A stretch of 64,000 nt of DNA from Aureibaculum sp. 2308TA14-22 (lineage in GTDB: Bacteria > Bacteroidota > Bacteroidia > Flavobacteriales > Flavobacteriaceae): the NCBI RefSeq assembly GCF_040538665.1, contig NZ_JBEWXT010000001.1:956501-1020500 (forward strand), written 5' to 3'. Positions within the stretch are counted from its first letter, which is position 1; each line of letters starts with the position of its first letter. Below are positions 7,722-40,585 of this stretch, in pieces. A model generated the notes under the pieces. It had not been told where the DNA came from, did no database searches, and saw nothing but the letters and a program-made list of their open reading frames with translations. A program made the translations under genes and the position numbers.

Positions 7722-7757
7722 ACCCTGTCTCGATAGCTATCGGGATTGTTTCAGGGT
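7722..7757. repeat. Dispersed palindromic repeat, nested hairpin
   Basis: The core 7728-7745 is an 18-nt near-palindrome (TCTCGATAGCTATCGGGA), one base different from the perfect copies at 23493-23510 and 23617-23634. Here it is enclosed by a second inverted repeat, ACCCTG (7722-7727) with CAGGGT (7752-7757). It lies between two plus-strand genes. Confidence 0.7.
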
Positions 7758-23308: not shown

Positions 23309-23338
23309 TTGCAGGGAACTAAATTGATTGTATTTTTG
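23309..23338 (+). promoter_or_regulatory. Promoter of the SRP RNA gene
   Basis: TTG (23309-23311), 19 nt, then TATTTTTG (23331-23338): both boxes and the spacing match the Bacteroidota consensus, and the predicted start falls on the first bases of the SRP RNA. Confidence 0.7.
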
Positions 23339-23340
23339 CC

Positions 23341-23440
23341 GTGGGTAAGTCCTACACAACCAGCTCCCTTTGAATCCTCCAGGGCAGGAATGCAGCAAAG
23401 GTATTAGGTCGTAGCGGTGTGATGTAGATCGCTTACCCAT
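23341..23440 (+). ncRNA. ffs: Bacterial small signal recognition particle RNA (4.5S)
   Basis: About 100 nt. The apical domain contains the conserved asymmetric and symmetric loops (TCCAGGGCAGGAATGCAGCA, residues 23377-23396), the part bound by Ffh. The terminal stem is closed by GTGGGTAAG (23341-23349) with CTTACCCAT (23432-23440). The RNA is part of co-translational targeting of membrane and exported proteins. A run of T follows directly after the stem. It has its own two-box promoter. Confidence 0.92.
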
Positions 23441-23455
23441 TTTTAATGAGACTTT

Positions 23456-23483
23456 AGTTTTAAGAGCGTAGCGAATTAAAACT
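23456..23483. repeat. Hairpin AGTTTTAA/TTAAAACT behind the SRP RNA
   Basis: AGTTTTAA (23456-23463) and TTAAAACT (23476-23483) are perfect inverted repeats with a 12-nt loop (GAGCGTAGCGAA). It starts 16 nt after the SRP RNA. Confidence 0.6.
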
Positions 23484-23492
23484 AATTAGTCG

Positions 23493-23532
23493 TCCCGATA
23501 GCTATCGGGATAATCCCGCTGTATAGCGGGAT
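23493..23532. repeat. Perfect 18-nt palindrome plus second hairpin
   Basis: TCCCGATAGCTATCGGGA (23493-23510) is a perfect palindrome. ATCCCGCT (23513-23520) pairs with AGCGGGAT (23525-23532) right after it. The first part recurs at 23617-23634, with one change at 7728-7745, and with two changes inside a tRNA remnant at 40235-40252. Confidence 0.8.
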
Positions 23533-23616
23533 CTCTTTGATTTAACTACCTCATTTTTTTGATTAATGATATTAAAAACCGTTAAGAGTCGAAGACGAAT
23601 TGAAAATTGCTGGTCG

Positions 23617-23634
23617 TCCCGATAGCTATCGGGA
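23617..23634. repeat. Second perfect copy of the 18-nt palindrome
   Basis: TCCCGATAGCTATCGGGA, identical to 23493-23510 including the preceding CG and following T. The stretch 23441-23733 between SRP RNA and the SDR gene holds only these repeats and the SDR -7 box. Confidence 0.8.
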
Positions 23635-40178: not shown

Positions 40179-40209
40179 TTTGCGATAATGAAAAACTAAT
40201 TTATATTTG
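40179..40209 (+). promoter_or_regulatory. Two-box promoter of the tRNA-Val locus
   Basis: TTTG (40179-40182), exactly 19 nt, then TATATTTG (40202-40209). The distance from its last G to the tRNA-like remnant at 40221 is 12 nt, the same as that between the second tRNA's -7 box and that tRNA. The promoter therefore seems placed for the remnant rather than for the intact tRNA 71 nt away. Confidence 0.75.
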
Positions 40210-40220
40210 CATCCGCTTTA

Positions 40221-40261
40221 GGGCAATTAGCTCATCCCGATAGTTATCGTGAGGTTCAGAG
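40221..40261 (+). pseudogene. tRNA-Val 5'-half remnant interrupted by a palindromic repeat
   Basis: GGGCAATTAGCTCA (40221-40234) and GGTTCAGAG (40253-40261) are identical to the first 26 nt of the intact tRNA at 40280, except that the three bases between (GTT) are replaced by an 18-nt copy, with two changes, of the dispersed palindrome (40235-40252). No 3' half follows. Confidence 0.8.
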
Positions 40262-40279
40262 TTCAAAAGTAATGCAATG

Positions 40280-40354
40280 GGGCAATTAGCTCAGTTGGTT
40301 CAGAGCACCTCGTTTACACCGAGGGGGTCGGGGGTTCGAATCCCTCATTGCCCA
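40280..40354 (+). tRNA. tRNA-Val (anticodon UAC)
   Basis: 75 nt. Acceptor stem GGGCAAT (40280-40286) pairs with ATTGCCC (40347-40353); D-arm with GCTC/GAGC; anticodon stem CCTCG/CGAGG with loop TTTACAC, anticodon TAC; T-arm GGGGGTTCGAATCCCTC. Discriminator base A at 40354; no encoded CCA. It is followed by a terminator. Confidence 0.96.
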
Positions 40355-40364
40355 CATCAATCAC

Positions 40365-40397
40365 AATCCCGATACAATTTCTTGTATTGGGATTTTT
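40365..40397 (+). terminator. Terminator after tRNA-Val(UAC)
   Basis: AATCCCGATACAA (40365-40377) pairs with TTGTATTGGGATT (40382-40394), with one G-T pair, loop TTTC, followed by T-rich sequence. Confidence 0.85.
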
Positions 40398-40508: not shown

Positions 40509-40583
40509 GGGTCATTAACTCAGTTGGTTCAGAGTGTTACCTTGACAGGGTAGAAGTCACTGGTTCGAATCCAGTATGACCCA
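40509..40583 (+). tRNA. tRNA-Val (anticodon GAC)
   Basis: 75 nt. Acceptor GGGTCAT (40509-40515) pairs with ATGACCC (40576-40582); D-arm with CTC/GAG; anticodon stem TTACC/GGTAG with loop TTGACAG, anticodon GAC; T-arm CTGGTTCGAATCCAG. Discriminator A; no encoded CCA. Together with the first tRNA it covers all valine codons. Confidence 0.96.
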
Positions 40584-40585
40584 CA

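Follow-up and report, generated by a model that had tools for sequence, protein, structure and literature searches.

A broken tRNA-Val copy in Aureibaculum as a probable relic of a small GIY-YIG element of Bacteroidota tRNA genes

The window, which is the whole 64,000-nucleotide stretch of Aureibaculum sp. 2308TA14-22 DNA analysed here, contains a tRNA-Val(UAC) gene preceded by a copy of its own 5' end, and in this copy three D-loop bases give way to an 18-nt palindrome. The same arrangement recurs at many tRNA genes of Bacteroidota, and the window copy therefore appears to be what remains of a very small mobile element. Our preferred reading, to which we give a probability of about two-thirds, takes the tRNA-Val feature for an ORF-less relic, or else a non-autonomous copy, of a compact homing-type element resident in the tRNA genes of Bacteroidota. 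A complete unit of this element comprises two parts, namely a duplicated tRNA gene end that is kept by the native promoter or 3' flank and has arm or loop bases exchanged for a palindrome, and a gene for a GIY-YIG nuclease of ~95 aa between this remnant and the intact tRNA. We propose that the nuclease would be matched to a single tRNA gene and cut it in or near an arm, and that repair from an element-bearing copy would install the ORF together with a new tRNA end, leaving the host with a working tRNA. The palindrome would break the leftover copy, which could then be neither recut nor folded as a tRNA. At the tRNA-Val copy the ORF has likely been lost, and the remnant would be decaying. The weak point of this account is that the duplicated stretch is still whole in the regenerated tRNA; immunity to recutting would thus need a recognition that reaches into the native flank, and a role of the palindrome in purely blocking recutting leaves the retained stretch unexplained.

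The tRNA-Val locus of the window

The features of the locus are as follows.

40179..40182, + strand: TTTG, a -33-like promoter box (read from the sequence)
40202..40209, + strand: TATATTTG, a -7-like promoter box, 11 nt 5' of the remnant (position computed)
40221..40234, + strand: tRNA-Val remnant, tRNA nt 1-14, GGGCAATTAGCTCA (sequence)
40235..40252, + strand: 18-nt palindrome TCCCGATAGTTATCGTGA in place of tRNA nt 15-17 (GTT) (sequence)
40253..40261, + strand: tRNA-Val remnant, tRNA nt 18-26, GGTTCAGAG (sequence)
40262..40279, + strand: 18-nt spacer from the remnant to the intact tRNA-Val; no ORF here
40280..40355, + strand: intact tRNA-Val(UAC) (ARAGORN; Rfam RF00005, 71.1 bits)
40365..40397, + strand: terminator-like hairpin and T run 3' of tRNA-Val (by eye, from the sequence)
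40509..40584, + strand: tRNA-Val(GAC), intact, no remnant seen (ARAGORN; sequence)

The sequence at 40221-40261 agrees with the initial annotation, which had described an interrupted 5' copy of tRNA-Val with three D-loop bases exchanged for an 18-nt palindrome carrying two changes; the palindrome at 40235-40252 differs from TCCCGATAGCTATCGGGA at two bases. The copy had been given as 26 nt, and this is right as a span, but strictly only 23 tRNA bases are present. Its distance from the intact gene is 59 nt from start to start (40221 vs 40280, ARAGORN), as described. The TTTG and TATATTTG boxes are promoter-like by the flavobacterial consensus. The spacing from the box to the remnant, formerly put at 12 nt, is 11 nt, and the equality with the second tRNA that had been pointed out still holds because that gene (40509) likewise has 11 nt after its box TAAATTTG. 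The proposal that the remnant occupies the original gene start is borne out by relatives: of the 13 congeneric loci that could be read, seven are empty, and in these the intact tRNA directly follows the TATATTTG box. As the promoter adjoins the intact tRNA at these empty sites, the remnant sits where the gene formerly began.

A chance duplication was considered and is ruled out by shuffle controls and distant-window controls. The remnant 14-mer did not occur in 20000 mononucleotide shuffles of the region, and the 18-mer with up to three mismatches has seven matches in the window, where shuffles average 0.02; these matches lie at four places, three of which count on both strands. We also looked for a group I intron: the intact tRNA-Val is contiguous, and no intron family exceeded the threshold in the window or in L002-L005. 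The window copy contains no endonuclease ORF but only the 18-nt spacer, and for this reason we call it a relic and not a complete member of the homing-type mobile ORFs. The spacer (40262..40279) holds the place that the GIY-YIG nuclease ORF occupies in the tRNA-Asn relatives.

The same arrangement at other tRNA genes of the genome and genus

A DNA search of the same genome returned matches that include two further tRNA loci with this pattern, a tRNA-His (L002) and a tRNA-Asn (L004), both on the minus strand. The D arm of the 5' remnant reads AGCTCA-[TCCCGATAGCTATCGGGA]-GGTTAGAGC at both, with exactly GTT missing. The exact three-base replacement described by the initial annotation for tRNA-Val, which is one of GTT, is also found at tRNA-His, at tRNA-Asn and at the tRNA-Trp of a relative. 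Between the remnant and the intact tRNA, the Asn locus has a 96-aa ORF with a GIY-YIG domain (PF01541, 44.3 bits vs a cut-off of 22.6). This is the single ORF of at least 40 aa in that element, and no integrase gene lies within the element. The relative G009 has both forms, an Asn unit with the ORF and a tRNA-Trp unit without it, the latter with the palindrome TCCCGATAGATATCGGGA. Six GIY-YIG hits were obtained in the Aureibaculum genome, and among the five scanned for tRNAs (L038 was left out) tRNAs were found only at the Asn locus. As a separate observation, a 3' piece of tRNA-Ala, AATCCGATATGCTCCAC, lies at L003:1703-1719 of the same genome, ~125 nt past the intact tRNA-Ala (1502-1576) and with no palindrome.

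The gapped D-arm pattern in its palindrome form occurs at 10 places in eight of 299 genomes of the family, one of the 10 being a one-base variant without the ORF (G312). Six further genomes have the gapped pattern without the palindrome, and the reversed control gave one match. The ORF followed by tRNA-Asn was found in seven of the eight palindrome-form genomes, the Aureibaculum genome included, and in G009; in G219 the contig end falls within tRNA-Asn. A further pattern, GGTNNNGAG, matched only the window copy among 395 genomes of the order, but it fits Val and not Asn, so that this single match is uninformative on Asn, His and Trp.

Occupied and empty sites alternate within the genus. Six of the 13 readable tRNA-Val loci have a remnant and seven are empty; the remnant stands in G000, G003 and G005, while those of G001, G002 and G004 are decayed and lack the palindrome. 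The initial annotation had held that relatives with the same layout and no palindrome would speak against it. Such layouts do exist in these last three genomes, but as decayed remnants. The tRNA-Val of G003 is accompanied by two tandem remnants, the second carrying TCCCGACGCTTCGGGA. All 13 readable tRNA-Val loci lack a nuclease ORF. For tRNA-Asn, three of 17 genomes of the genus are occupied (G000, G005 and G009), one is decayed (G007) and 13 are empty; the ORF of the G005 unit is open but encodes YIV instead of YIG, and the palindrome of this unit carries a single change. The tRNA-His remnant is palindromic in G000, other remnant-like stretches are present in G005, G011 and G012, and nine of 13 readable genomes are empty. 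This presence/absence polymorphism at a single site is seen between species, not within one.

The nuclease-bearing family across Bacteroidota

Named genomes were scanned with an alignment of eight Asn-unit proteins (A1), and the best 80 of 144 relatives correspond to 79 loci. The hosts of these 79 are nearly all Bacteroidota; the outlying hosts among them are, by title, Chlorobiota (L109) and Algicola (L070), and the host-order count includes one Alteromonadales row. Of the 79 loci, taken from the best of the 144 relatives, 68 have a tRNA on the same strand no more than 300 nt upstream or 600 nt downstream. We scored a remnant as interrupted if tRNA sequence flanks an insert of 12-33 nt on both sides and a same-strand tRNA is present. 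By this rule, 58 of the 68 tRNA-adjacent loci carry an interrupted tRNA remnant, with the endonuclease ORF between the duplicated gene parts; the control rates are 5 in 1160 for shuffled regions and 1 in 374 for distant windows. The rule left 11 of the 79 loci unscored, as they have no same-strand tRNA; by eye, nine of the 11 have a palindrome-interrupted remnant (L062, L080, L090, L104, L115, L119 at a tmRNA, L123, L136 and L137) and L081 and L117 have none. Inspection by eye of the 10 tRNA-adjacent loci that fail the rule revealed a palindrome-interrupted remnant at L087, L098, L110, L116, L130 and L138 and none at L112, L124 and L134, L089 being cut by the contig end.

The units adopt two layouts. 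Layout A consists of a 5' remnant, the ORF and the intact tRNA, and layout B of the intact tRNA, the ORF and a 3' remnant; in layout B the terminator of the tRNA is usually co-duplicated, e.g., in the G138 array. The inserts measure 15-29 nt and are exactly 18 nt long in 47 of the 58 loci. Self-complementarity from end to end reaches 75% or more in 51 of 58, and the remaining seven are, by eye, palindromic with an offset or an internal loop. There are 28 distinct insert sequences in the 58 loci, such as TCCCGATAGCTATCGGGA, TTCCGATAGCTATCGGAA, TGCCGATAGCTATCGGCA, CCCCGAAGCTTCGGGG and TCGCGAAGCCTCGCGA. The insert takes the place of exactly GTT in 32 of 58 (the D loop in 17 cases, the T loop in 15), in loci that are related and thus not independent; in the other 26 different arm bases are replaced and a few inserts sit between arms. 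The target of L119 (Chitinophagales) is a tmRNA (RF00023, 117.4 bits), and its 5' tmRNA remnant has AGTT replaced. Tandem arrays (L260, L259) with units of 379-391 bp comprise five units in G138 and seven in G172. The five units of remnant plus nuclease gene in G138 stand behind tRNA-Met, whereas the remnants of G172 are Phe-type, with no tRNA in the stretch examined and a seventh ORF that was matched only in part.

Some layout-A copies have no ORF of their own. Those of L110 and L116, both 5' of tRNA-Asn, retain the ORF leader (an equally good match arose in 0 and 10 of 500 shuffles, respectively), and both loci have an ORF behind the tRNA. The spacers of the Val, His and Trp copies show no significant similarity to the ORF leader (57, 102 and 198 of 500 shuffles as good), and no ORF-bearing tRNA-Val unit of layout A was seen. 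To call the window Val copy a proven ORF deletion is unsupported, since 57 of 500 shuffles match the ORF leader no worse than its spacer does. A further locus of the Aureibaculum genome, L036, has a GIY-YIG ORF between a gene end and a 98-nt copy of 89.8% identity (1101-1198 and 1772-1869); a 32-nt hairpin repeat is likewise duplicated, one copy standing on either side. The gene, judged by eye, is a putative dihydrolipoamide acyltransferase, and the locus is possibly a protein-gene version of the element.

The nuclease, ~95 aa in length, is a single domain and barely more than the catalytic domain. Its PF01541 domain and conserved residues place it in the GIY-YIG superfamily: Y6, Y17, R27, H31 and E65 are invariant in 23 aligned proteins, and Y6, Y17, R27 and H31 have the same numbering as catalytic residues of I-TevI. 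AlphaFold models the L061 protein with confidence (pLDDT 94.9). Slx1 and At-HIGLE were the first matches of this model in VIA-align with Z 8.1 (6sei_A, rmsd 3.0, 92 aligned), followed by UPF0213 (Z 6.4) and I-TevI (Z 6.1), Z values that are middling, and in Foldseek every E-value exceeded 0.001. The nuclease might conceivably read structure, as Slx1 does. For the L004-L044 pair, dN is 0.139 and dS 0.443; dN below dS suggests, at the level of sequence, that these genes are under purifying selection.

The nuclease tree holds 76 of the 79 proteins, with 37 of its 72 inner branches open. Over 57 rows, the tRNA isotype changes 12 times on this tree, whereas 300 shuffles never gave fewer than 23 changes, and the nuclease lineages therefore tend to stay mostly with one tRNA isotype. 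The isotype changes twice within Flavobacteriales (25 rows; at least 4 in shuffles) and 11 times outside it (32 rows; at least 13 in shuffles), where the tracking is weaker. Changes of layout (7 vs at least 13), of the interrupted arm (12 vs at least 16) and of the host order (13 vs at least 16; 46 rows) are likewise below the shuffles.

Palindromes, rival explanations and known systems

Palindromes also occur away from tRNA genes. The 17-nt core, with two mismatches allowed, is matched 43 times on the forward and 40 times on the reverse strand of the Aureibaculum genome (most sites count twice), and the reversed control has 0. The exact palindrome is present in 79 of the 299 genomes of the family, with a maximum of 53 copies per genome and again 0 in the reversed control. 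Within these 299 genomes, called nuclease-positive at E up to 1e-15, it was found in 32 of 53 positive vs 47 of 246 negative genomes, and at least three copies in 20 of 53 vs 21 of 246, an association that is partly circular because complete elements contain the palindrome. At 7728-7745 of the window, and also in L011, the palindrome sits in the loop of a dispersed non-tRNA hairpin, CACCCTG...TTGTTTCAGGGT; judged against the plain hairpin of other Flavobacteria, the copy at 7728 may replace AAC, the complement of GTT. Window 23336-23634 holds a small SRP RNA gene (Bacteroidales_small_SRP, 113.6 bits) and, behind it, two exact palindromes that are spaced by 124 nt and share the 23-mer GTCGTCCCGATAGCTATCGGGAT. 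No convincing SRP RNA remnant was found near these palindromes (23493 and 23617), and the dispersed copies at 23489 and 23613 read GTCGTCCC, which contains CGTC. In L119, a TCCCGATAGCTATCGGGA palindrome at 1940-1957 lies within an intact tmRNA (Rfam match 1697-2085, Chitinophagales). The notion that palindromes always sit in hairpin loops is only partly true, as some tRNA insertions lie between arms, and flank stems at 17 palindrome sites of the Aureibaculum genome are weakly above shuffles, the few beyond z -2 being tRNA sites.

Copies away from tRNAs, together with the one inside the intact tmRNA of L119, indicate that the palindrome may move alone. It could then be an autonomous, very small mobile repeat that enters hairpin loops and survives in tRNA genes only in duplicates that arose otherwise, and its abundance in the Aureibaculum genome and in the family, against empty controls, as well as the copies in the non-tRNA hairpin loops of window 7728 and L011, would fit this. 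We nevertheless consider it unlikely. An interrupted remnant at 58 of 68 tRNA-adjacent nuclease loci is too regular for independent hits, the insert varies among lineages (28 distinct in 58), and the flank stems single out little beyond the tRNA sites. The idea of the initial annotation that a free 18-nt repeat had been caught inserting finds no support in that form: the architecture is that of a stereotyped family, normally with a GIY-YIG gene, in which the palindrome varies between lineages. In a different proposal the GIY-YIG protein would be an RNase that attacks tRNA, with the broken remnant serving as its RNA decoy, like a toxin-antitoxin pair. The isotype tracking of the nuclease tree and the remnant being a partial copy of the same tRNA would agree with this, but the nearest folds are those of DNA nucleases (Slx1, I-TevI and UvrC), copies without the ORF persist, and presence and absence at the empty sites resemble insertion, so we hold it to be very improbable.

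Closer to the preferred reading is a version that leaves the element otherwise as described and lets the palindrome act in RNA, its hairpin preventing the remnant from competing with the intact tRNA in folding and processing. In the window precursor fold, pairing with the 3' acceptor strand has a probability of 0.24 for the remnant strand and 0.15 for the intact strand, and the competition for this strand suggested in the initial annotation is thus possible there, the energy models of the ORF-bearing relatives being uninformative on it. When GTT is restored in the window precursor, the remnant pairs with the D arm of the intact tRNA, and the probability of native acceptor pairing drops from 0.15 to 0.00; moreover, the insert varies in sequence but mostly keeps its self-complementarity. 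The fold test covered 48 of the 58 interrupted-remnant loci, 15 of layout A and 33 of layout B. In layout B, acceptor pairing is higher by >0.02 with the palindrome in 3 of 33 loci and lower in 0 of 33, but the mean intact acceptor-stem probability is only 0.029 for the actual, 0.007 for the reverted and 0.010 for the shuffled sequences, and the test is mostly uninformative. Layout A gave means of 0.032, 0.030 and 0.047, respectively, with the reverted form higher in 4 of 15 loci and lower in 1 of 15. Some palindromes, besides, lie between arms rather than in a loop, and an RNA role appears doubtful to us. A bolder extension of the preferred reading, which we regard as less likely than not, is suggested by L036, the palindrome-nuclease co-occurrence and the palindrome in the L119 tmRNA: small Slx1-like GIY-YIG nucleases and the dispersed Bacteroidota palindromes may form one general system that invades gene ends (tRNA, tmRNA and protein genes such as that of L036), makes the gene whole again and leaves behind a remnant broken by a hairpin, with the palindrome being the recognition or immunity mark of the nuclease and the free palindromes its footprints.

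With regard to the homing-type element itself, the nearest precedent found is a mobile ORF of fungal mitochondria that brings along a duplicated gene end (PMC3630166). Such mORFs are reported in atp6, atp9, cox2 and nad3 of Glomus and atp6 of Allomyces, the mORF of atp9 being a GIY-YIG protein (PMC3630166). Like the tRNA element, they combine an endonuclease ORF with a duplicated gene end, leaving the host gene usable and its native end displaced, but they reside in mitochondrial protein genes, whereas the element here occupies bacterial tRNA and tmRNA genes and has a ~95-aa isotype-matched nuclease. A palindrome in the remnant, present in the tRNA element, is not described in the first half of the mORF account (PMC3630166). 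Titles and abstract openings in the open-access literature, a range outside which most subscription papers fall, yielded no prior description of a GIY-YIG element in tRNA genes.

Ssn proteins are single-strand-specific GIY-YIG nucleases with NTS repeats in Neisseria. They resemble the tRNA element in joining a small GIY-YIG protein to many genomic repeats, but residence in tRNA genes, duplication of the gene end and interruption of the remnant, all present in the tRNA element, are not known from Ssn/NTS. Cyanobacterial small dispersed repeats are reportedly (Elhai, 2008) ~20 nt long and inserted in other sequences; the tRNA element differs from them in that a nuclease gene and a target duplication accompany the repeat. 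Phages and ICEs in tRNA genes regenerate an intact tRNA upon integration and leave a tRNA remnant, as the tRNA element does, but in the Asn element of Aureibaculum the sole ORF of at least 40 aa is GIY-YIG and not an integrase. REPs have a dedicated enzyme, the RAYT tyrosine transposase, whereas that of the tRNA element is of the GIY-YIG type. The palindromic repeats themselves are a likeness between the tRNA element and REP/RAYT (PMC3116915, PMC3733652). No GTAG/CGTC tag was seen by eye at the tRNA sites of the Aureibaculum genome, whose flanks are tRNA sequence.

If the preferred reading is true, Bacteroidota would harbor a very small bacterial selfish element, with tandem units of about 360-390 bp each, that restores the tRNA genes it enters and so makes their occupation safe, coupling an isotype-matched nuclease with a built-in hairpin scar. 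It may provide a cause for otherwise unexplained Bacteroidota palindromes, would call for caution in tRNA annotation and in the mapping of tRNA precursors, and would offer a compact model of how homing nucleases gain targets in essential genes.
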